Shown here: one piece after another, positions 1 through 9,489 of the stretch
Position numbering within the stretch: position 1 is the stretch's first letter
Layout of the letters: every line of letters begins with the position of its first letter
Assembly: GCA_900554375.1 (NCBI GenBank)
Contig: USHK01000033.1
Location: forward strand, 1-9,489
Origin: an uncultured Sutterella sp.
GTDB taxonomy: Bacteria > Pseudomonadota > Gammaproteobacteria > Burkholderiales > Burkholderiaceae_F
Length of the DNA stretch: 9,489 nucleotides
Reading direction: 5' to 3'
Notes under the pieces: generated by a model
What the model saw: the letters and a program-made list of their open reading frames with translations, nothing else
The model's database searches: none
Told to the model about the DNA's origin: nothing
Position numbers and translations under genes: made by a program

Positions 1-47
1 GAGATTCATGAGCGTCTCGTGGGCTCGGAGATGTGTATAAGAGACAG
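1..47. other. Illumina Nextera i7-side adapter (non-genomic)
   Basis: Bases 14-47 match the 34-nt Nextera read-2 transposase adapter, ending in the 19-bp mosaic end AGATGTGTATAAGAGACAG at 29-47. Bases 1-5 (GAGAT) fit the end of the P7 oligo and bases 6-13 (TCATGAGC) sit where the i7 index belongs. From memory this is the reverse complement of a standard Nextera index. The bases are library construct, not genome. They create false protein tails: the minus-strand frame through them ends in SLIHISEPTRRS and a plus-strand frame begins MYKRQ, both typical adapter-derived peptides. Confidence 0.98.
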
Positions 48-1289: not shown

Positions 1290-2015
1290 ATGACTGGACT
1301 TGGCACTCTCACAAATGTATTCGCTATTGCCCTCGGCGGAATATTAGGAATCATTTTCGGTAGGCGTTTGGCTGTAAACCATCAAAAGGCCTTAATCTCC
1401 GCATGCGGGTTATGCGTAATTTTCATTGGGATCGCAGGTACCCTAGAACAGATGTTCAGGATTAAGGACGGTGTCATTTCCACTTCCGGTATCTTAGTTG
1501 TGGTGCTCAGCTATGCCGTTGGGACACTTCTAGGAACAATATTTGATCTAGAAGGAAAAATTGAAAAATTTGGAGAATTTCTGAAAAACAAAGCCAACAG
1601 AAAAAATGACAATAACTTCGTTACCGCTTTTGTTGTTTCTTCATTAACTGTATGCATTGGAGCCATGGCCGTTGTCGGAGCGGTACAAGACGGTATCCAT
1701 AACGATGTGTCAATTCTCGTTGCCAAATCTATTTTGGACTTTGTCATAATCTTCATACTGACTGCCTCCTTAGGGATCGGGTGCGCTTTTTCGGCAATTC
1801 CTGTAGGCATTTTTCAAGGAAGCATTACGCTCCTGGCAGTGTTCATCGAACCTGTTTTGACTGCGAAGGCTCTTGGGTATCTTTCTATGACCGGATCGAT
1901 GCTGATTTTTTGCGTGGGCATTAATTTGGTTTTTGGGAAGAAATTTGAGGTGGCTAACATGCTTCCGGTCTTGATAGTGGCCGTGTTATTCGCATATATT
2001 CCCAACTTTGACTGA
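1290..2015 (+). CDS. DUF554 (YqgA-type) integral membrane protein
   Basis: A 241-residue polytopic inner-membrane protein of the DUF554 family, to which E. coli YqgA belongs; its transport or signalling role is not established. The family length (about 230) and signature fit: an N-terminal GTLTNVFAIALGGILG stretch (residues 5-20), and the central GAMAVVGAVQDGIHND (124-139) followed by LVAKSILDF (143-151). Hydrophobic segments fall at about 7-24, 36-53, 65-84, 111-131, 147-166, 168-188, 198-215 and 222-238, with a basic loop at 97-108 (KNKANRKND). The ATG at 1290 is the natural start for the conserved N-terminus, but there is no recognisable Shine-Dalgarno, so translation may be weak or use an A-rich leader. 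It stands alone: its upstream neighbour is divergent and its downstream neighbour convergent. Nothing links it to the molybdoenzyme module. Confidence 0.9.
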   Translation: MTGLGTLTNVFAIALGGILGIIFGRRLAVNHQKALISACGLCVIFIGIAGTLEQMFRIKDGVISTSGILVVVLSYAVGTLLGTIFDLEGKIEKFGEFLKNKANRKNDNNFVTAFVVSSLTVCIGAMAVVGAVQDGIHNDVSILVAKSILDFVIIFILTASLGIGCAFSAIPVGIFQGSITLLAVFIEPVLTAKALGYLSMTGSMLIFCVGINLVFGKKFEVANMLPVLIVAVLFAYIPNFD

Positions 2016-2219: not shown

Positions 2220-3206
2220 CTAGGATGTTTTCAGCGATTTCTTTGAGATTTTTTTGCTTTCCTGACGTTTTTTGGCTCGTTTCTCTTCGAGACTGCGCAG
2301 TAAAACAGATCGAAACCACTGATGAGCCGGGTCAAAATGTGTACGGTCATGCCACAGAAACACCGGTGTCCAGGCCGGTTCCGCAACCAAATTCTTAGGA
2401 AGAATCGTCAGAGGAAGATTCCCGATGAGTTCGTTTACAGAAGATTCCGGCAGGCGTCCGATGAGATCACACTGGGTCAGCATATGGGGAACCGTTAATA
2501 GATACGGAGTATCAATCGCAATACTGCTTCCTTCCTCAAATCCGGAGGACTCCGTCGTAATTTTTCCTTCTGAATATCCGTACTTCACCGCAATAAAACG
2601 GTAGCTCTTTAGGTCCGCTCTCTTAAGCTGTTTACCTTCCTTAAGTTTGACTGCCAAAGGATGCGTATCCCTGACTACATATAAATGATCCGTGTTGTAG
2701 AGCGTCTCGTAGTGGAATTTCTTTCCTAATTCTCTTAACTTGAGATTGGGCGGCGCATAAATGACGATATCTATGTTGCCCTTCTCTAACGCCCACTGAA
2801 AATGCTCATGAAGCGAAATAACGGAAAGACGAATATTAGGAGCCTGCGAGAAGAGATTCGCAAGTGAGGGAACAATAAATCTCAGCGCTGCATTATCAAT
2901 GCAACCAATGCGGAAATCTTGCGTCAAGTCCTTAGGAGAAAAGACCTTCGGACTTGGAAGACGATCGATGCGCATCAAAATGGACTGAATCTCGCCAATC
3001 AATGAATCCATCTTGGGGGTCGGCATCATCGCACGGCCGCTTTTCACAAAAAGAGGGTCTTCAAAAATTTCCCGTGCTTGTGCCAAAAGGCGGAAACACG
3101 TCGCAGAGCCCTTTCCTAAACGGTTAGCAGTAGAGATAAGGTTGCGCGAGTCATAAAACTCGGCAAGAAATCTAAGCAATTCGCTGGTGGGACGGTCTTG
3201 GGCCAT
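2220..3206 (-). CDS. LysR-type transcriptional regulator, divergent from the molybdoenzyme operon
   Basis: A LysR-family activator/repressor of 328 residues from the ATG at 3206. A longer frame from a TTG at 3239 (339 aa) is open, but its extra 11 codons run through the palindromes at 3213-3257 and have no ribosome site, so I prefer the ATG. In the 339-residue numbering, the winged helix-turn-helix spans about 20-78 (LLRFLAEFYDSRNLISTANRLG, then FEDPLFVKSGRAMMPTPK). The effector-binding periplasmic-binding-protein fold spans about 108-313. The C-terminal WHDRTHFDPAHQWFRSVL is close to the WHxRxxxDPxHxWLR pattern of the NahR/DntR/LinR/NodD group, many of which bind aromatic compounds. An unusual Lys-rich tail follows (RAKKRQESKKISKKSLK). 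The divergent placement 134 bp from the molybdopterin subunit strongly suggests that it controls that operon and senses its substrate or a related compound. The effector is unknown. Confidence 0.92.
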   Translation of the reverse strand: MAQDRPTSELLRFLAEFYDSRNLISTANRLGKGSATCFRLLAQAREIFEDPLFVKSGRAMMPTPKMDSLIGEIQSILMRIDRLPSPKVFSPKDLTQDFRIGCIDNAALRFIVPSLANLFSQAPNIRLSVISLHEHFQWALEKGNIDIVIYAPPNLKLRELGKKFHYETLYNTDHLYVVRDTHPLAVKLKEGKQLKRADLKSYRFIAVKYGYSEGKITTESSGFEEGSSIAIDTPYLLTVPHMLTQCDLIGRLPESSVNELIGNLPLTILPKNLVAEPAWTPVFLWHDRTHFDPAHQWFRSVLLRSLEEKRAKKRQESKKISKKSLKTS

Positions 3207-3212
3207 ATCGTT

Positions 3213-3257
3213 ATCAATTTTGATGAGGATTTTTGTCAATTTTAATCAAATATGACA
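3213..3257. promoter_or_regulatory. Putative LysR operator: two inverted repeats
   Basis: Two inverted repeats lie side by side just upstream of the regulator's ATG. ATCAA-TT-TTGAT (3213-3224) is a perfect 5-bp arm repeat, and TGTCA-N14-TGACA (3234-3257) is a perfect 5-bp arm repeat over 24 bp. LysR proteins classically bind a T-N11-A dyad between divergent promoters plus a second site near the target -35, and this arrangement fits. The assignment is inferred from position and symmetry. Confidence 0.5.
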
Positions 3258-3279
3258 GGAAAACTCGTCTTTTCAAAAT
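3252..3279 (+). promoter_or_regulatory. Candidate promoter of the molybdoenzyme operon
   Basis: ATGACA (3252-3257, five of six -35 consensus bases) is followed after 16 bp by CAAAAT (3274-3279, four of six -10 bases), giving a start near 3286 and a leader of about 54 nt. The -35 overlaps the right arm of the proposed operator, as expected for LysR activation or repression. This is inference from sequence only. Confidence 0.35.
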
Positions 3280-3339
3280 ATGGAAATCACTCCAAAATTT
3301 CGCCCAGAAGCACCCCAATGCTGACAAGGAGAAACAATT

Positions 3340-5541
3340 ATGCAAAAACTCTCAAGAAGGCAAATTCTCAAGGCAATCTCCGCTCTTCCGGCCGTCTCTC
3401 CGGCCACTTCCGTACTTGCTCAGGCAGCTAATCCTCAAGCACAGGAATGGACGGGCTTTGCCATTTGCGATTCTTGCAATCACGTCCCCGCTTGCGGAAT
3501 TCAATTCCAGGCACAAGGCAATAACATTATCAGCATTAAAAACTGGAAAGAACATCCGCGTCATTGGCTCTGTTCCAAGGGCATGAGCACGCTGCAGCGT
3601 TTATATAACCCGAATCGTCTCCTTTATCCTATGAAGCGTACTGCTCCCAAAGGCGCGGCTGATCCGGGCTGGGTTCGTATTACCTGGGACGAGGCTTACA
3701 AGACGATTGCAGCTAACATGCTCGCCGCCAAGAAGAAATACGGCCCCGAATCCGTTATGTTCTATGCAGGAGACCCGAAAGAGCCGAGACCTTCCATTTA
3801 TCGTCTGGCTCGTTATTTTGATTCTCCAACTTGGGCCACAGAATCTTCCGCCGCTTGCCGCTCAGGCTGCATGATGGCCGAACAGCTCAACTTCGGCCAG
3901 CCGAATAACGGGTCAACACCCACTAAAGATACTAAGGTTTATATGATCATGGCTACCAACGTTTGGGCTCAGCCTCTAGGTTGGTGGGAAGCCATCAAGG
4001 CCGCAAAAGCACGCGGCTGCAAGATCATCACGGTTGATACCAGACGAACCAAAGCCGCAGAAATCGCCGATATCCATTTGGCTCCTGCCATTGGTACGGA
4101 CGCTGCTTTGGCTGCCGGTATCGCCCGCGTTCTGATCAAAGAAAACCTTATTAATAAGCCCTTCATCGATCAGTGGACACATGGTTTCGAAGAATACGCC
4201 AAATATGTGGAGCAGTTCACACCCGAAAAGACTCAGGAAATTACCGGCGTACCGGCTGATAAAGTCGTAGCAGCTGCTCGACTTTGGGCGCAGGGGCCGG
4301 GATCCTTTACTCTGACAACTCAGTCCCTGTCTCATAACTCCAACGGTGTAAACAACACTCGCGGTTTGCTCCTACTGCCAATCTTAATGGGTTACATCGA
4401 TATACCGGGCGGCGTCCCCTTCGGCCTGCCTCCGAAAGGTTTGTCCATGGCAGCCTTCGGTCTGCACCCTGCCATGTCTGATAAGAAGTGGTGGAACTCT
4501 CCTGAAGTGAAAGCTCGCCGCCTAGATAAAGACGAGCTTCCGCTTTGGCACGACCTGCAGGATCAGACCAGCCCTAACAACCTGCCTGAATGGGTTCGCG
4601 ACGGAAAAATCAAAGTCTTCTGCGGGTGGGGCTTTAACGTCAATATTTGGCCTCAGCCCGATGTCTATAACGACGCTCTCTCTAAATTAGACTTTGCGTT
4701 CGCTACTGACTATTTCCATCGCAAAGACAGTCATCGCAACATGGACATCATCCTTCCTGCTGCAATGAACTATGAACGCCACGCTCCCTTCGGCTGGTAC
4801 GGTCCGAACATTGCCGTTCGTAAGCCGATTAAGCCGCTCGGCGAAGCTAAAGAAGACTGGCGTATCGCTCTAGAGCTCGGCTGCATCATCGATAAGCCTG
4901 AAAACTTCTTTGACGGCGATCCTGAAAAAGCACTTGACTTCATTCTTCATCAGTACGAAGGGGGAGACCTGGTTAAATTCAGAAATGCGCTGCCTCAGAT
5001 CAGCCGTATCCCGGCTCCGAAACCCGGTTTTAAGAAGTATGAAGACGGAAGACTTCGTGCCGACGGCAAGCCCGGTTTCAACACTCTTTCCGGAAAACTG
5101 GACTTCTTCTCCGATCGCGCAGCTAAATTCGGCTACCCGGGCCTTCCGATTTACAAACCAATGACCGATCTCAGCAAAGAGTTTGATCTTCGTCTAATGA
5201 ACGGCTCCCGCAAACCGTACATCACGCACAGCAAGACTCGTACAGATCAACCCTATTTGATGGAAATTGAAGATTGCCTGCATGTCAATATCAATCCGAA
5301 AGATGCTGAAGCCAGAGGTATCAAGGAAGGCGACACCATCCTCATCACATCTCCGTTCGGCGGTCCTGTGGAAGGAAAAGCAGTAGTTTCTCTGATCGCT
5401 CCTGTCGGTACGATTGATTGTCAGTATGGCTGGCTAGACAATCAAAACACGCAGAAACTCATGAACCGCGACAATCGTGACCCGATGTCCGGTTATCCGA
5501 GCTACTTCGAAAATCCCGTCCGTGTAGAAAAGAAAGCCTAA
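3340..5541 (+). CDS. Tat-exported molybdopterin oxidoreductase, catalytic A subunit
   Basis: Catalytic subunit of the DMSO-reductase (Mo-bisMGD) superfamily, 733 residues, a normal length. It starts at an ATG 8 nt after AAGGAG (3326-3331). The N-terminus is a twin-arginine signal (SRRQILK, 5-11) with a short hydrophobic part and a plausible AQA cleavage site after residue 29, so the enzyme should be periplasmic. A [4Fe-4S] site follows: C43, C46, C52 and C78 (CX2CX5CX25C, with a longer second gap than the usual X3). Next come RLYNPNRLLYPMKRT (87-101), GWVRITWDEAY (110-120) and the Mo-ligand region ESSAACRSGC (168-177). C173 aligns with the NapA Cys/FdhF Sec ligand by spacing to FG (185-186). 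The C-terminal molybdopterin-binding beta-barrel spans about 615-728 and ends NPVRVEK. The substrate is unknown; possibilities include sulfur or other anion reduction and dehydroxylation of aromatic compounds. It is followed 10 nt later by its iron-sulfur partner and has no membrane-anchor gene. Confidence 0.95.
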   Translation: MQKLSRRQILKAISALPAVSPATSVLAQAANPQAQEWTGFAICDSCNHVPACGIQFQAQGNNIISIKNWKEHPRHWLCSKGMSTLQRLYNPNRLLYPMKRTAPKGAADPGWVRITWDEAYKTIAANMLAAKKKYGPESVMFYAGDPKEPRPSIYRLARYFDSPTWATESSAACRSGCMMAEQLNFGQPNNGSTPTKDTKVYMIMATNVWAQPLGWWEAIKAAKARGCKIITVDTRRTKAAEIADIHLAPAIGTDAALAAGIARVLIKENLINKPFIDQWTHGFEEYAKYVEQFTPEKTQEITGVPADKVVAAARLWAQGPGSFTLTTQSLSHNSNGVNNTRGLLLLPILMGYIDIPGGVPFGLPPKGLSMAAFGLHPAMSDKKWWNSPEVKARRLDKDELPLWHDLQDQTSPNNLPEWVRDGKIKVFCGWGFNVNIWPQPDVYNDALSKLDFAFATDYFHRKDSHRNMDIILPAAMNYERHAPFGWYGPNIAVRKPIKPLGEAKEDWRIALELGCIIDKPENFFDGDPEKALDFILHQYEGGDLVKFRNALPQISRIPAPKPGFKKYEDGRLRADGKPGFNTLSGKLDFFSDRAAKFGYPGLPIYKPMTDLSKEFDLRLMNGSRKPYITHSKTRTDQPYLMEIEDCLHVNINPKDAEARGIKEGDTILITSPFGGPVEGKAVVSLIAPVGTIDCQYGWLDNQNTQKLMNRDNRDPMSGYPSYFENPVRVEKKA

Positions 5542-5551
5542 GGAGATCGTC

Positions 5552-6193
5552 ATGAGCAAATATGGAATTATCGTTAACGCCGACGACTGCATCGGCTGTC
5601 ATGCCTGCTTCGTAGCTTGTAAAGAAGAAAATCAAGTTGCTCCGGGAGTGAAATGGAATCATTTGGAAAGACTTGAACATCCGGCCGAAGAAGTTATTGA
5701 GTACTTCCGAGTCTCCTGCATGCACTGCGAAAATCCCGCCTGCATGAAGGTTTGTCCGGTTAAAGCCGTTTATTTCGGACCGCACGGTGAAGTTCTGATC
5801 GACCAAAAGAAATGCATCGGCTGCAAAGGCTGCTTGGCAGCCTGCCCGTACGGTGCTCCCAAATTTTCCGATCCGAATAAACAGTCCTACTACGGCGACC
5901 TGAAGCCGCTCGGCGGAAGAGGTGCCAGCCCGACAGCCTGGACAACTCGAATTCCCGGAAAAGCCGAGCATTGCACTTTGTGTACGCATCGTACTTCCGA
6001 AGGCCGTTTGCCTGCCTGCGTTGAAGTCTGCTCGACCAAAGCCCTTCAGTTAGTAGACTACGACAACCCGACCGATGCTCAAAAAGCTTTGATTGCTAAG
6101 GCCCAGATCATCAATAAAGATGCGGGTACTTCTCCGAAGATCCGCTTCATTTCCTCCATTACTGACTTTGGAGCTATGAAGGTTAAAGCCTAA
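5552..6193 (+). CDS. Four-cluster [4Fe-4S] ferredoxin-like electron-transfer B subunit
   Basis: The DmsB/PsrB/TtrB-type partner of the upstream molybdoenzyme, 213 residues. Its AAGGAG ribosome site (5540-5545) overlaps the A-subunit TAA, with 6 nt to the ATG, so the two are translationally close and made in one operon. All 16 cluster cysteines are present: C13/C16/C19/C23, C56/C59/C64/C68, C88/C91/C94/C98 and C141/C144/C156/C160, which predicts four [4Fe-4S] clusters wiring electrons to the A subunit. There is no signal peptide, so it probably travels folded with A through Tat. There is no C-terminal membrane helix. The usual third gene (NrfD/PsrC or DmsC anchor) is absent, so how electrons enter is unknown; a soluble cytochrome or a remotely encoded quinol oxidase is possible. 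The ends of the protein (YGIIVNADDC and the FISSITDFGAMK tail) look complete. Confidence 0.95.
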   Translation: MSKYGIIVNADDCIGCHACFVACKEENQVAPGVKWNHLERLEHPAEEVIEYFRVSCMHCENPACMKVCPVKAVYFGPHGEVLIDQKKCIGCKGCLAACPYGAPKFSDPNKQSYYGDLKPLGGRGASPTAWTTRIPGKAEHCTLCTHRTSEGRLPACVEVCSTKALQLVDYDNPTDAQKALIAKAQIINKDAGTSPKIRFISSITDFGAMKVKA

Positions 6194-6364
6194 GTTTGAA
6201 TTGCGGTGCCAAAAGCGTGCGGCACCGCCTCGTATTTTTGGGCGGGTCATGAATCCGCCCTTTTTTTGTCGGAACTTTTCAATATATATGGCAGAAGCTA
6301 CTGCTATTGCCAAGAGCAATCCAAAGACAGTAAACCGAATACCTGACTTCGGATTAAGCTTCAT
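6050..6364 (-). CDS. Doubtful small membrane-anchored ORF antisense to the operon end
   Basis: An ATG at 6364 opens a 104-codon frame. Its first 35 residues look like a real signal anchor: a basic N-terminus (MKLNPKSGIR), a hydrophobic run at about 11-28 (FTVFGLLLAIAVASAIYI) and a basic stop-transfer (EKFRQKK). After that it runs through the reverse complement of the two terminators and into the B-subunit gene, where the residues look like antisense shadow. There is no ribosome site. It may be the surviving 5' piece of a lost gene, a very short membrane protein, or chance. Only about 6260-6364 has coding character. Confidence 0.2.
   Translation of the reverse strand: MKLNPKSGIRFTVFGLLLAIAVASAIYIEKFRQKKGGFMTRPKIRGGAARFWHRNSNLGFNLHSSKVSNGGNEADLRRSTRIFIDDLGLSNQSFLSIGRVVVVY
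6203..6239 (+). terminator. First intrinsic terminator-like hairpin after the AB operon
   Basis: A perfect 8-bp stem GCGGTGCC/GGCACCGC (6203-6210 and 6221-6228) with a 10-nt loop, starting 10 nt after the B-subunit stop. The T-run (TATTTTT, 6233-6239) begins 4 nt from the stem, so it may be inefficient alone. It is backed up by the next hairpin. Confidence 0.7.
6240..6267 (+). terminator. Second, strong rho-independent terminator of the AB operon
   Basis: The stem GGGCGG/CCGCCC (6240-6245 and 6255-6260) is extended by a G-U and a T-A pair to 8 bp and is directly followed by seven T residues (6261-6267). This is a canonical intrinsic terminator on the plus strand. In the other direction the hairpin is followed by A residues, so it is not bidirectional. 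It separates the chaperone gene from the AB transcript. Confidence 0.92.
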
Positions 6365-6560
6365 AAAATGCTTTTTTCGACACTGTTGCGAACCGGCGTC
6401 CTTATTTTCGATAGGACTTATTTTCGGGAGTCACCGCTGTCTTCTTCTCAGTTTCCCCTAAGTCCCAGTTAAATGATTCGCCCTATCATCACTTAGCTGA
6501 TAAAGTTTCCGGCAATGAACTAACTCTGTGCAATTTTGTACGCAGTCCCAAAGGAAGAAC
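6268..6560. promoter_or_regulatory. Leader/promoter region of the chaperone gene
   Basis: About 290 bp without a convincing plus-strand gene. It holds a 10-bp direct repeat, CTTATTTTCG, at 6401-6410 and 6417-6426 (16-bp period). An overlapping inverted repeat is GTCCT (6398-6402)/AGGAC (6413-6417), and another is ATGAT-N7-ATCAT (6473-6489). A promoter must lie here because two terminators precede it, but no hexamer pair is good enough to name. The left part overlaps the doubtful minus-strand ORF. Confidence 0.35.
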
Positions 6561-7130
6561 ATGAATTACCAAGAAATCACTCGAGAAGAATGCTTCGAAG
6601 CATTAGCAAAAATCATCACCGTTTTAAGCGAAATTATTCTTGACCCGCATGAGAATAAAACTTCCGTCTACCCAAAGGCTGCAGAAGCTTTTAACAGTAT
6701 TGCCGATGAAGTTGGTTTTAATGGCCCTCGTTTCGGCACCGTCTCTTTTAATGAAAACTTTGACCGAGAGGCAGCTAAACTCTTTTACGGTGTCGGTGAC
6801 ACAACGATCGGGATGACGCATTCTTTTTGGGCCGGCGGTCTGATTACGGTCACGGGACAAAATACCCACGAAGCATTTAAAACCTATCTCAACAAGGGCC
6901 TTCAAAACACTTCTAACCTGCCTGACGACCATCTCGCTGTCGAGCTCGCATTCCTTGGACATCTTTTGGCGGAAGACAAAATTGACGAAGCTCAGCAGTT
7001 CGTTAAAACTGAAATCCTGACCTGGTGGCCGACAGCTGAACAAAACATCGACAGCAAGACACAAAACAGAGACATCAAGGCGTTCTTCGCCTCCGTCACA
7101 GCTGCCTTGAAGTTTGTAGAAGCTCTTTAG
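6561..7130 (+). CDS. TorD/DmsD-family molybdoenzyme maturation chaperone
   Basis: A cytoplasmic all-helical chaperone of 189 residues, a typical TorD-family length. Such proteins bind the Tat signal and apo-form of a molybdoenzyme, assist Mo-bisMGD insertion and hold back export until the enzyme is folded. The key sign is PDDHLAVELAFLGHLL (121-136), the family's (P)DHLxxELxFMxxLL motif. KLFYG (73-77) and HSFW (87-90) match the upstream family positions, and QFVKTEILTWWP (146-157) matches the Fl..hL..W.P motif. I chose the ATG at 6561, preceded by AAGGAAG (6551-6557); a GTG at 6528 would add 11 residues without a ribosome site. It lies 367 bp after the B subunit, behind two terminators, so it is transcribed separately but is most simply the dedicated chaperone of the A subunit. 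It ends just before its own terminator. Confidence 0.85.
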   Translation: MNYQEITREECFEALAKIITVLSEIILDPHENKTSVYPKAAEAFNSIADEVGFNGPRFGTVSFNENFDREAAKLFYGVGDTTIGMTHSFWAGGLITVTGQNTHEAFKTYLNKGLQNTSNLPDDHLAVELAFLGHLLAEDKIDEAQQFVKTEILTWWPTAEQNIDSKTQNRDIKAFFASVTAALKFVEAL

Positions 7131-7136
7131 TTTATC

Positions 7137-7156
7137 TGTGTGAACATGTTCACACA
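7137..7156. promoter_or_regulatory. Perfect 20-bp palindrome with CRP-type core TGTGA-N6-TCACA
   Basis: Bases 7137-7156 are identical to their own reverse complement. The core (7139-7154) is TGTGA-N6-TCACA, the exact half-sites and spacing of the CRP/FNR-superfamily CRP consensus. It lies just after the chaperone stop and before that gene's terminator, with its centre 119 bp upstream of the transporter ATG. It could serve class I activation of the transporter from a start near 7208 (TTTAAA at 7196-7201 as -10). It does not match the FNR consensus TTGAT-N4-ATCAA. Regulator identity is inferred. Confidence 0.6.
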
Positions 7157-7165
7157 TGCTTTCCA

Positions 7166-7188
7166 CCGCCTTTTTAAAGGCGGTTTTT
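7166..7188 (+). terminator. Rho-independent terminator of the chaperone gene
   Basis: A perfect 8-bp stem CCGCCTTT/AAAGGCGG (7166-7173, 7176-7183) is followed by TTTTT (7184-7188) and a further T-rich stretch. The nominal loop is 2 nt, so the innermost A-T pairs will open. It begins 36 nt after the chaperone stop. Confidence 0.9.
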
Positions 7189-7265
7189 GCTTTATTTTAA
7201 AGACTTCTCGTCTCCGTTCGTTGCCACGTTGAGACTAAACTATCCGCAAATTCCAAGGAAAAATA

Positions 7266-8237
7266 ATGTTAGCCGCAACAATACTTCATTCACTATCCGC
7301 GGTCTGCGTTTTATTGATCGTGATCGGTTTTGGTGTTTTTCTCGCACGCAAAGGCTGGTTCGATGCGCCCTCGCACCGCGGTATCGTCTCTAAACTCGTC
7401 AACGCCGCGTTGCCGTGCTTTCTTTTTTATTCAGTTATTTCAAAGTTTTCGCATGGCGAACTTTATAACTTACTGAAGTTTGCCGGGCTTCCGTTCCTCA
7501 CGGTCGGCTTGAATTTTTTAGTCTCCGTTCTCTTTATCAAGCTCGGCTGGGTCCGACCTCATATGAAAGGAACCTTTATTGCCGCATTTACCGGAGCGAC
7601 CGTTTTGTTCGTCGGTGTTCCGCTCGTACAAACAATGTACGGCTCTGACGGAATTCCTTATTTGCTCGTCTACTTCTTTGCTAACTGCGTCTTCATTTGG
7701 ACCGTCGGAATTTTTAATATTCAATTAGACGGGGCGCGCCGAGGGATGGCAGAGGAACCCAAGATTTTCTCGGTTCGAGGCCTCAAGATGCTGCTCTCCC
7801 CTCCGCTGATGGGATTTCTTATTGGTTTAATCGTTGTCCTGCTCTCGATTCCCGTTCCTAAGTTTATCGCTCAGTCAACCCACACAATCGGCCAGTTAGC
7901 AACGCCGTTGGCCTTGGTGTTCGTCGGCATTACAGTCTGGCAAATCGGTTTTGAGAAACTCAAAAAACTCCCTAGGGAAGTCTGGCTGATCCTTCTTTCC
8001 TGCTATGTTATTCGTCCGATCACAATGTATTTGTGCACCATGCCGTTAGACATGGATCCGCTGATGAGAAAGTGCTTCATTCTCGCCTCCGCTCTCCCTG
8101 TCTCCTCCGTCATTGCAGTGCTTTCCAAGGCATACGGCGGCGACGAAGAGTTTGCTTCAGAGGCTATTGGGGCAAGCACTGTTGCGATGATCTTCGTCCT
8201 TCCCTTCCTGCTAATTGCCGTCAACCTCGTCAACTGA
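7266..8237 (+). CDS. AEC (auxin efflux carrier) family transporter
   Basis: A 323-residue inner-membrane permease of the AEC family, whose bacterial members move small carboxylates such as malonate or malate. The start ATG follows AAGGAA (7255-7260) by 5 nt. The family layout of two similar halves of about five helices is visible. The first half has KLVNAALPCFLFYSVI (43-58) and the FTGATVLFVGVPLVQTMYG region (108-126); the Asn usual before F.G.P is Thr112 here. A cytoplasmic loop lies around 153-168. The second half has ATPLALVFVGITVW (212-225) and LASALPVSSVIAVLSKAYGGD (273-293), then ASEAIGASTVAMIFVLPF (297-314). It has its own region after the upstream terminator and a CRP-like palindrome at 7137-7156. 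The last 27 bp overlap the end of the convergent kinase gene. The substrate is unknown; it might import or export the compound used by the molybdoenzyme, but nothing in the sequence proves this. Confidence 0.9.
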   Translation: MLAATILHSLSAVCVLLIVIGFGVFLARKGWFDAPSHRGIVSKLVNAALPCFLFYSVISKFSHGELYNLLKFAGLPFLTVGLNFLVSVLFIKLGWVRPHMKGTFIAAFTGATVLFVGVPLVQTMYGSDGIPYLLVYFFANCVFIWTVGIFNIQLDGARRGMAEEPKIFSVRGLKMLLSPPLMGFLIGLIVVLLSIPVPKFIAQSTHTIGQLATPLALVFVGITVWQIGFEKLKKLPREVWLILLSCYVIRPITMYLCTMPLDMDPLMRKCFILASALPVSSVIAVLSKAYGGDEEFASEAIGASTVAMIFVLPFLLIAVNLVN

Positions 8238-9447
8238 ATCCGGCTTGAAACGAATCACGAAGTCGGTCCCTTTGCCGACTTCGGATTTGAGCGCAATATT
8301 CCAGCCTAACGCCTCAGCTGCGCGCTTTGAAATCGCCAGTCCCAAACCGAATCCCTGATAATGGCCGCGACTGCCCTGTCCGGCCCTGAAACCGCGGTCA
8401 AAAACTCGTTCACGATCCTCTTCTTTTATACCGATTCCCGTGTCTCGAATAATGGCTTGATCTTCGTCAACGATGACGGTCACCGTACCCTTGTCCGTGT
8501 AATGAATGGAATTGAAGACAAGATTATCGAAGATAGTTGCACCGAGCACTTCGTTGAATGTCTGCTTGGGCGCCTCCTTCAATTCGACTGAAAGTTTTAA
8601 GCCCTTGTTCTCGGCCTTTTGTTTCCAAGACTCTTTGAGTCCGGCAATGAGTTCCGGCATAGAGCAAAGCGCATTGTTCTGACCCGTTCTTGCCCTGCCG
8701 ATATTTAAAAAGACTTCGGCCATTCCTTTAATTCTCGAAGAGGCATTCTGAGCCCGGCGAATTAATGTTTTTTGACGGTCGTTGCCCTGAACCTGTTCAT
8801 TGAGAAGTTCAAGGCTAGTATCGATCACCGTGAGGGGAGTGCGAACTTCATGGCTGACTTCAGTAGAGAAGGCCCTCTCCTTCATCGCCAGCACTTTGAG
8901 CTTGGAAACCAGTGCTTTAAAAGATCGTTCCAGTTCTCCGATTTCATTGTCGGGCCAATGACCTTTGAAAATCTCTTCGCTGTAGATTTTTCCGTTCTGG
9001 ATCAATCCCTCTGCCCTAACAGCTTCTTTTGTTAACTGCCCCAGAGGAGAAAGGAGCTTGCGACCTAGATACCAGCCGACAAAAGAGCAAATCGCAATCA
9101 AAAGGATGAATCCGACAACTCCGATTCTAAAAAGGTGTCTTTCCCAAATCTCAAAATTCCCTTGATGGCGCGTCAGGACATAACGCTTTCCGTCAATAAT
9201 CTTAGTGTAGGTATGAAGATCTTCACCGTCCGTAAACTCCGTATAACCTTGAGGATAATGTTTAAAAAGATCTGGAATTGCTCGGCTGGGATCTCCTTCA
9301 ATATAAAGACGGGAAACATGGTCCAAGCGGGGCGGCTTTCCCTGCAGAATATCGGCCGTAACCACCGTTTGAAGCATGTCATCCATGACAGATGCCATAA
9401 GTTTGTTTTCCGCAGTCTCCAATACATAAACGAGCGTAATGGAATAG
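8211..9447 (-). CDS. Sensor histidine kinase, 5' end missing
   Basis: The C-terminal 411 residues of a membrane-bound two-component kinase. The first residues of the apparent frame (MCIRDS) are adapter, so the true start and first membrane helix are lost. In that frame's 417-residue numbering, about 7-110 is a periplasmic sensor region (AIPDLFKHYPQGYTEF, then KRYVLTRHQGNFEIWERHL), which resembles sensors of CarS/ColS-like kinases. A membrane helix lies at 111-133, then HAMP (to about 190), HisKA with FSTEVSHEVRTPL (phospho-acceptor H205), and a GHKL ATPase. Its N-box is FDNLVFNSIHYT (312-323), G1 is DTGIGI (341-346), F-box RVFDRGFR (353-360) and G2 GFGLGLAISK (371-380). All catalytic elements are intact. 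The gene ends at a TAG 27 bp inside the convergent transporter gene. No response regulator is in the window; it probably lies upstream, off the contig. The signal is unknown. Confidence 0.95.
8258..8283. terminator. 9-bp hairpin after the transporter stop, inside the kinase 3' coding end
   Basis: A perfect inverted repeat CGAAGTCGG/CCGACTTCG (8258-8266, 8275-8283) with an 8-nt loop lies 20 nt past the transporter stop. It could act as the transporter's 3' end or terminator, but the following bases (GATTTGAG) lack a true T-run. On the minus strand it encodes kinase residues around 394-403 (SEVGKGTDFV), so the pairing may be partly a coding accident. Confidence 0.35.
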
Positions 9448-9489
9448 CTGTCTCTTATACACATCTGACGCTGCCGACGACTCCTTACG
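9448..9489. other. Illumina Nextera i5-side adapter (non-genomic)
   Basis: Bases 9448-9480 are the reverse complement of the Nextera read-1 transposase adapter, starting with mosaic end CTGTCTCTTATACACATCT. Bases 9481-9488 (CTCCTTAC) occupy the i5 index position (reverse complement GTAAGGAG, a standard index from memory), and the last G begins the P5 oligo. The artefact peptide MCIRDS comes from here. Confidence 0.98.

Follow-up and report, generated by a model that had tools for sequence, protein, structure and literature searches.

A predicted anchorless molybdenum/iron-sulphur reductase in Parasutterella-like bacteria and a candidate NapC/NirT electron donor

Within a 9,489-bp stretch of DNA from an uncultured Sutterella sp. 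(GenBank assembly GCA_900554375.1, contig USHK01000033.1; the whole stretch is called the window), we analysed the genes for a molybdoenzyme catalytic subunit (A), an iron-sulphur (FeS) electron-transfer subunit (B), a TorD-like chaperone and a divergent LysR-type regulator. In our preferred reading, to which we give an even chance, A and B (AB) would form a two-subunit Mo/FeS periplasmic reductase, predicted to be exported by twin-arginine translocation (Tat), lacking a membrane anchor and fed by a separate CymA-like quinol dehydrogenase. The route from menaquinol through a cytochrome to B and A was proposed by analogy with Shewanella ArrAB and CymA. In short, TorD would load A in the cytoplasm and B would be exported together with A. 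Electrons would pass from menaquinol to a NapC/NirT cytochrome and on to B, either directly or via small tetrahaem cytochromes, and from B to the Mo centre of A, where a periplasmic substrate would be reduced. The LysR protein would sense this substrate.

Absence of a membrane anchor

Subunit A was found in 19 of 67 genomes of the family of Parasutterella excrementihominis YIT 11859 (E ≤ 1e-100), at 32 places, two of which are fragments in genome G018. Contexts were inspected for 25 copies, namely the window and 24 of the 32 places in relatives (the flank in L053 being shorter than 260 bp). B lies next to A in 24 of the 25, L105 being the copy without a detected B. AB has the Mo-bis-molybdopterin guanine dinucleotide (bisMGD) subunit, the [4Fe-4S] site and the four-cluster B that mark complex iron-sulphur molybdoenzymes. 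The membrane C subunit usual for these enzymes was missing: NrfD was detected by hidden Markov model (HMM) in none of the 25 AB operons, and none of the eight open reading frames (ORFs) scanned in the window matched NrfD, DmsC or cytochrome b in Pfam, as the original prediction had claimed. The polytopic ORFs of the window encode a DUF554 protein and an AEC-type transporter. Other polytopic ORFs near AB were judged by membrane-helix counts from a hydropathy sliding window rather than a trained predictor, and the AB-adjacent ones partly by Pfam. An NrfD gene 3.3 kb from AB in L115 is located inside a separate A-B-NrfD operon. An anchor gene elsewhere in a conserved cluster, which the original prediction had named as a possible refutation, was not found joined to AB in any of the 25 copies. 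The absence of an anchor is a family trait of AB.

Anchors encoded elsewhere were also considered. NrfD occurs in all 19 A-positive genomes (52 matches; counts for NrfD, NapC/NirT and PF00384 can include gene pieces, and those for PF00384 also other users of the domain). DmsC was absent from 18 of the 19, and the single match (G039) was at the cut-off and overlapped an NrfD match, so that a DmsC encoded elsewhere was rejected as the anchor.

In YIT 11859, 16 PF00384 matches were present, plus one further, weaker molybdopterin gene in L085. Labels above cut-off were NapA, NarG, two formate dehydrogenases and two DmsA (DmsA/YnfE-type, above the TIGR02166 cut-off); labels below cut-off were two BisC/TorA-like, two PhsA-like and one ArrA-like, and two matches had no label. 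This genome carries three A copies of the AB family (L094, L088 and L090). NrfD adjoins both PhsA-like genes and one formate dehydrogenase, and cytochrome b561 adjoins the second formate dehydrogenase and one of the unlabelled molybdopterin genes. NarG is neighboured by a 5-helix ORF (helix count only) and NapA by a NapH-like FeS membrane ORF. No anchor was recognised in the stretches read beside the three AB-family copies, the two DmsA, the ArrA-like gene and the other unlabelled gene; one DmsA has two ORFs of 11-12 helices (helix count only) next to it on the opposite strand.

A search for orphan NrfD genes, suggested in the original prediction and carried out gene by gene in YIT 11859, yielded none. 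Each of its six NrfD genes has a partner: two are in A-B-NrfD operons, one is with a formate dehydrogenase, two are with AOR-type enzymes and one is in a multihaem/NosL cluster. An orphan NrfD was therefore rejected as the AB anchor, every NrfD in this genome having its own partner enzyme. As side observations, L091 and L093 (contigs C62 and C32 of YIT 11859) each hold an operon of the aldehyde ferredoxin oxidoreductase type (AFOR_N/AFOR_C) that also encodes a haem protein, an FeS protein and NrfD, and a cluster of multihaem cytochrome, FeS protein, NrfD and ABC-transporter-like genes was seen in L092 and L095 (two genomes), with NosL confirmed by Pfam in L092.

Candidate electron donor

A NapC/NirT match over cut-off was present in all 19 A-positive genomes (25 matches; these are relatives, the window contig itself not being included). 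Additional matches occur in G001 (YIT 11859), G053, G060, G064 and G065, the extra one in G001 being in the NarG region. One cytochrome was followed per A-positive genome (stretches L141-L159). The followed proteins are 187-244 amino acids (aa) long as read, with a single predicted N-terminal membrane helix, and all 19 have four haem motifs, of which the first is always CxxxCHxM.

In 17 of the 19 genomes, the cytochrome gene follows a same-strand modE match at a distance of 153-312 bp. In those 17 genomes modA and modB (modC in 16) are divergent, and the contig ends in L156. Pfam identified ModE (helix-turn-helix, HTH, and TOBE), a substrate-binding protein, a permease and an ATPase in one genome, and ModE alone in a second; from these domains, a role of the mod genes in molybdate handling is predicted. 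Another ORF with at least three haem motifs was seen near the cytochrome gene in one stretch (L148) and in none of the 18 others, and on this ground the cytochrome was rejected as a dedicated NrfH. Of the remote electron donor postulated in the original prediction, a candidate gene was thus found in every A-positive relative; that its product is the donor to AB is what we infer.

Several points weigh against this assignment. NapC/NirT is over cut-off in 42 of the 67 genomes, so that the cytochrome is also encoded by 23 of the 48 A-negative ones, which fits a general hub and gives no specific link to AB. In G054 and G060 mod genes were not seen next to the cytochrome gene, and its position near modE might reflect synteny inherited within one family. 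More than one NapC/NirT match occurs in five of the 19 genomes, and the candidate donor is known from relatives only, the window genome not being among them. AB might instead be partnered by soluble tetrahaem cytochromes or flavoproteins, which are present too. Finally, since the sister clade of A mostly lacks the Tat motif (see below), quinol-linked reduction may not have been the ancestral function. No paper on a link between modE and a cytochrome was found, which is weak as a negative because "ModE" also matches "mode" and the best 10 of 54 matches were considered.

Subunit A

The N-terminus of A (MQKLSRRQILK) has a twin-arginine motif. Pfam matched Molybdopterin (3.9e-30) and Molydop_binding (3e-14); the Fe4S4 domain, at 21.6 bits, narrowly missed its cut-off of 22.7, and the four Cys of this domain are invariant in the alignment. 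They are Cys43, Cys46 and Cys52, in a Cx2Cx5C cluster loop, plus Cys78. Cys173 is the predicted Mo ligand, and a Cys at this position is invariant in the A clade.

The highest whole-protein NCBIfam score was that of formate dehydrogenase alpha (232.7 of 666 bits). A did not reach the cut-offs for PhsA/PsrA (NF012032; 199.7 of 694 bits) or ArrA (NF041714; 52.2 of 1600 bits), and was far under those for DmsA/YnfE, TorA/BisC, NapA, FdnG/Fdh, TtrA, NarG and AioA. Assignment of A to a known family was rejected on these scores, in keeping with the original prediction that the substrate is not readable from known subfamily models. The best sequence match in the PDB was PsrA (175 bits). An AlphaFold2 model (mean pLDDT 90) gave acetylene hydratase as the top Foldseek match (E 4.9e-46, TM 0.81), followed by polysulfide reductase; matches to polysulfide reductase, nitrate reductase and formate dehydrogenase were nearly as good.

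The phylogeny that had been proposed as a check placed A inside no characterised family included in the tree. A falls in a 53-row clade of Sutterellaceae and Desulfobacterota-like proteins, whose hallmarks are the Cx2Cx5C loop and the Cys at the Mo-ligand position, outside the DmsA, BisC-like, NapA, formate dehydrogenase and NarG rows, in a quick tree with SH-aLRT support only, in which rows for true PhsA, TtrA, ArrA, AioA, transhydroxylase and catechol dehydroxylase are missing and in which a long-branch warning covers, among others, the meeting of the A clade with an ArrA-like row. As judged from sequence, the AB enzyme family is new to the references tested, yet of a known kind.

The Tat motif is present in 75 of 77 Sutterellaceae-like A proteins versus 11 of 121 in the sister clade, which has few named members, Desulfatiglandales among them. 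As the Desulfobacterota-like proteins of this clade (P0086-P0212) mostly lack the motif, they may be cytoplasmic. Eleven of 212 A homologues, some of which are fragments, fit neither of two signature patterns.

More widely, A was found in 5 of 398 sampled Pseudomonadota genomes (E ≤ 1e-70), namely YIT 11859 and four with 32-34% identity. Plasmid records gave 998 matches, every one below 60% identity and 26-29% among the 12 matches listed. The top protein cluster of A has 2215 member sequences. The A-positive genomes have 7 to 16 PF00384 matches each, 211 across the 19. None of 274 genomes searched for a PhsA reference gave a match at E ≤ 1e-150, a result that is uninformative, the controls being equally silent. 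In the literature on molybdoenzymes and respiration of Sutterella, Parasutterella and Sutterellaceae, no paper on the AB family was found.

Subunit B, chaperone and regulator

Subunit B matches Fer4_11 (1.2e-18) and contains exactly 16 Cys, which form four groups and are all kept in the 24 B proteins compared. It has no twin-arginine motif of its own, and its best NCBIfam score is for ArrB (129.9 of 450 bits). The TorD-like ORF matches Nitrate_red_del, and its relatives adjoin AB in other genomes. Because several relatives are 188-189 aa long, the start at ATG 6561 (189 aa) is likelier than the GTG start of the ORF. The LysR gene adjoins AB in several relatives. Its product has a substrate domain, with the HTH just below cut-off (21.4 of 26.6). 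The resemblance to aromatic-sensing LysR proteins put forward in the original prediction was not borne out: the best NCBIfam scores were 75 bits for BsrA and 62 bits for LeuO, PcaQ reaching 25 bits, all far under cut-off.

Locus organisation

The LysR, Tat-type A, 16-Cys B and TorD-like genes were recovered by ORF calling and Pfam where they had originally been predicted (Table 1). ORFs were mostly named by top phmmer match, with an ORF caller that is crude for GC-rich genomes.

Table 1. Features of the window
Feature	Position	Strand	Evidence
DUF554, polytopic membrane protein	1290-2015		Pfam
LysR-type regulator, divergent from A	2220..3239	−	ORF; PF03466 1.4e-18
A: Mo/W-bisMGD catalytic subunit, Tat motif	3340..5541	+	ATG, 733 aa; Pfam, NCBIfam, AlphaFold2, Foldseek
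B: four-cluster [4Fe-4S] electron-transfer subunit, 16 Cys	5552..6193	+	Pfam, NCBIfam, Cys conservation
Stretch between B and TorD, no alignment to YIT 11859	6234..6542	.	blastn
TorD-like chaperone	ORF 6528..7130 (GTG start), likelier 6561..7130 (ATG)	+	PF02613 1.5e-08
AEC-type transporter (PF03547), next gene after TorD	7266..8237	+	Pfam

A is 97% identical to its counterpart in YIT 11859, and the DNA is 85-88% identical over three blocks aligned by blastn (47-1196, 2251-6233 and 6543-9446, against L094). Given this close match, the window is probably Parasutterella, of another lineage than YIT 11859. The DUF554 gene falls in the first alignment break and is absent at that site in L094. At L094 7504-15469, an 8 kb block separates B from TorD in YIT 11859, which the window does not have. 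It encodes a flavocytochrome with cytochrome c3-type haems, a LysR, a flavoprotein, a 131-aa tetrahaem cytochrome, a porin and a MocR-like regulator. In L097, from a sister genome with an A of 82% identity, LysR-A-B-TorD are contiguous as in the window, a layout that points to insertion of the block in YIT 11859. In 12 of the 25 copies, AB and TorD are no more than 350 bp apart, as measured on stop-to-stop ORFs, and in 3 of the 12 (L112, L113 and L115) TorD is on the opposite strand. The compact LysR-A-B-TorD layout thus holds for the window; as a fixed arrangement it does not, given these counts and the block in YIT 11859.

The AEC gene adjoins TorD in L094 too, and an AEC-like gene is near AB in L102 and L103 (by Pfam for L103). 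The AEC-type transporter does not belong to a quinol-oxidising anchor family, and its connection with AB is uncertain. Reading the substrate from the AB neighbours was rejected: AEC and major facilitator superfamily transporters, porins, flavoproteins, lyases and a racemase differ per locus and have no shared theme. Lyase_1 genes (fumarase/argininosuccinate lyase superfamily) were noted near AB at L106 11560-13059 and L101 3107-4588, one with a signal-peptide-like start.

Both ends of the window (1-47 and ~9447-9489) have transposase-adapter-like sequence, CTGTCTCTTATACACATCT and its complement, which we take to be a transposase adapter. These ends yield spurious peptide termini, e.g. SYTHLTLPTTPY, and the terminal ORFs are truncated there.

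Alternative explanations

AB could instead be a dehydrogenase or oxidase, in which a periplasmic substrate is oxidised and electrons are handed to a cytochrome. Formate dehydrogenase alpha gives A its top NCBIfam score and formate dehydrogenases are among the fold matches with similar Z; this score is far under its cut-off, however, and the TorD-like chaperone, the polysulfide reductase-like size and fold and the several reductase-type genes around favour reduction, if weakly. We regard oxidation as unlikely. An anchor of the NrfD/PsrC or cytochrome b type borrowed from another operon is improbable in our judgement. The 52 NrfD matches across all 19 genomes, the A-B-NrfD operon close to AB in L115 and the cytochrome b561 genes of YIT 11859 would make such an anchor available, but all six NrfD genes of YIT 11859 have their own partner enzyme and the B proteins beside them are distant from that of the window (phmmer 47-90 bits versus 489 for the type-strain ortholog).

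Two further readings concern the chemistry of A, and to each we give very little probability. A might perform reductive dehydroxylation or other aromatic chemistry like the gut catechol dehydroxylases, which the available portion of PMC7028382 reports as closest to acetylene hydratase, the best Foldseek match here; Desulfatiglandales are, moreover, among the few named sister-clade members. The identity to acetylene hydratase is 23-25%, however, below the >30% range applied to catechol dehydroxylase queries in that portion of PMC7028382; polysulfide reductase, nitrate reductase and formate dehydrogenase fit nearly equally, and the catechol dehydroxylases were compared by description only. Alternatively, A might be an arsenate or sulphur-oxyanion reductase drifted from ArrA or PsrA, as the best PDB match of A (PsrA) and the best match of B (ArrB) would suggest. 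Against this stand the low ArrA and PhsA scores of A and the content of the type strain, where a different gene scores higher as ArrA-like (927 of 1600, itself below cut-off) and two A-B-NrfD operons are PhsA-like (themselves below cut-off).

The preferred reading of a reductase fed by a quinol dehydrogenase can be extended, in a form we consider doubtful. One ModE-neighbouring tetrahaem quinol dehydrogenase (CX3CH first haem) might be a Mo-linked electron bus of Sutterellaceae that replaces the lost anchors of many Mo reductases (the AB family, DmsAB and ArrAB-like enzymes), and A might be the founding member of a new bis-MGD family that has a cluster loop of its own and reduces a diet- or host-derived gut compound in a novel reaction. 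If a single modE-linked cytochrome did feed these enzymes, one deletion would probe the whole respiratory network, and the Cx2Cx5C signature would delimit an abundant enzyme family. The 19 A-positive Sutterellaceae-type genomes are rich in PF00384, and the literature found says little on what they respire.

Comparison with known systems

PsrABC/PhsABC share with the window the A-B gene order, the best PDB sequence match and a Cys at the Mo-ligand position. They differ in that the window has no PsrC/NrfD, has a TorD-like chaperone and has an A far below the PhsA cut-off. Acetylene hydratase of Pelobacter acetylenicus is similar in its compact 727-residue fold and differs in its low identity, in the Tat motif and B subunit of the window system, and in one residue: Asn47 of A is aligned to a hydratase Asp, presumably the catalytic one. 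The gut catechol dehydroxylases of Eggerthella and Gordonibacter are likewise gut bis-MGD enzymes, and for those of Eggerthella a Tat signal and an adjacent FeS partner gene are described in the accessible part of PMC7028382; unlike AB, dadh, cadh and hcdh of Eggerthella co-localise there with a putative membrane anchor.

Shewanella ArrAB and CymA share with the system proposed here a Tat-type A, a four-cluster B, no anchor gene and an available NapC/NirT quinol oxidiser. As far as excerpts of PMC2500031 go, ArrAB has no ArrC, and CymA is a NapC/NirT protein that serves several reductases and is involved in arsenate respiration. The window A is not ArrA, and its Cx2Cx5C loop differs from the Cx2Cx3C of the ArrA-like row. 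In the available text of PMC3954881, arrAB is reported in YIT 11859 alone among 188 Burkholderiales genomes; the ArrA-like gene on contig C4 of this strain is the likelier bearer of that label. Compared with Shewanella CymA, the candidate donor gene lies beside modE in relatives, and its product would take the place of CymA by delivering electrons to AB.

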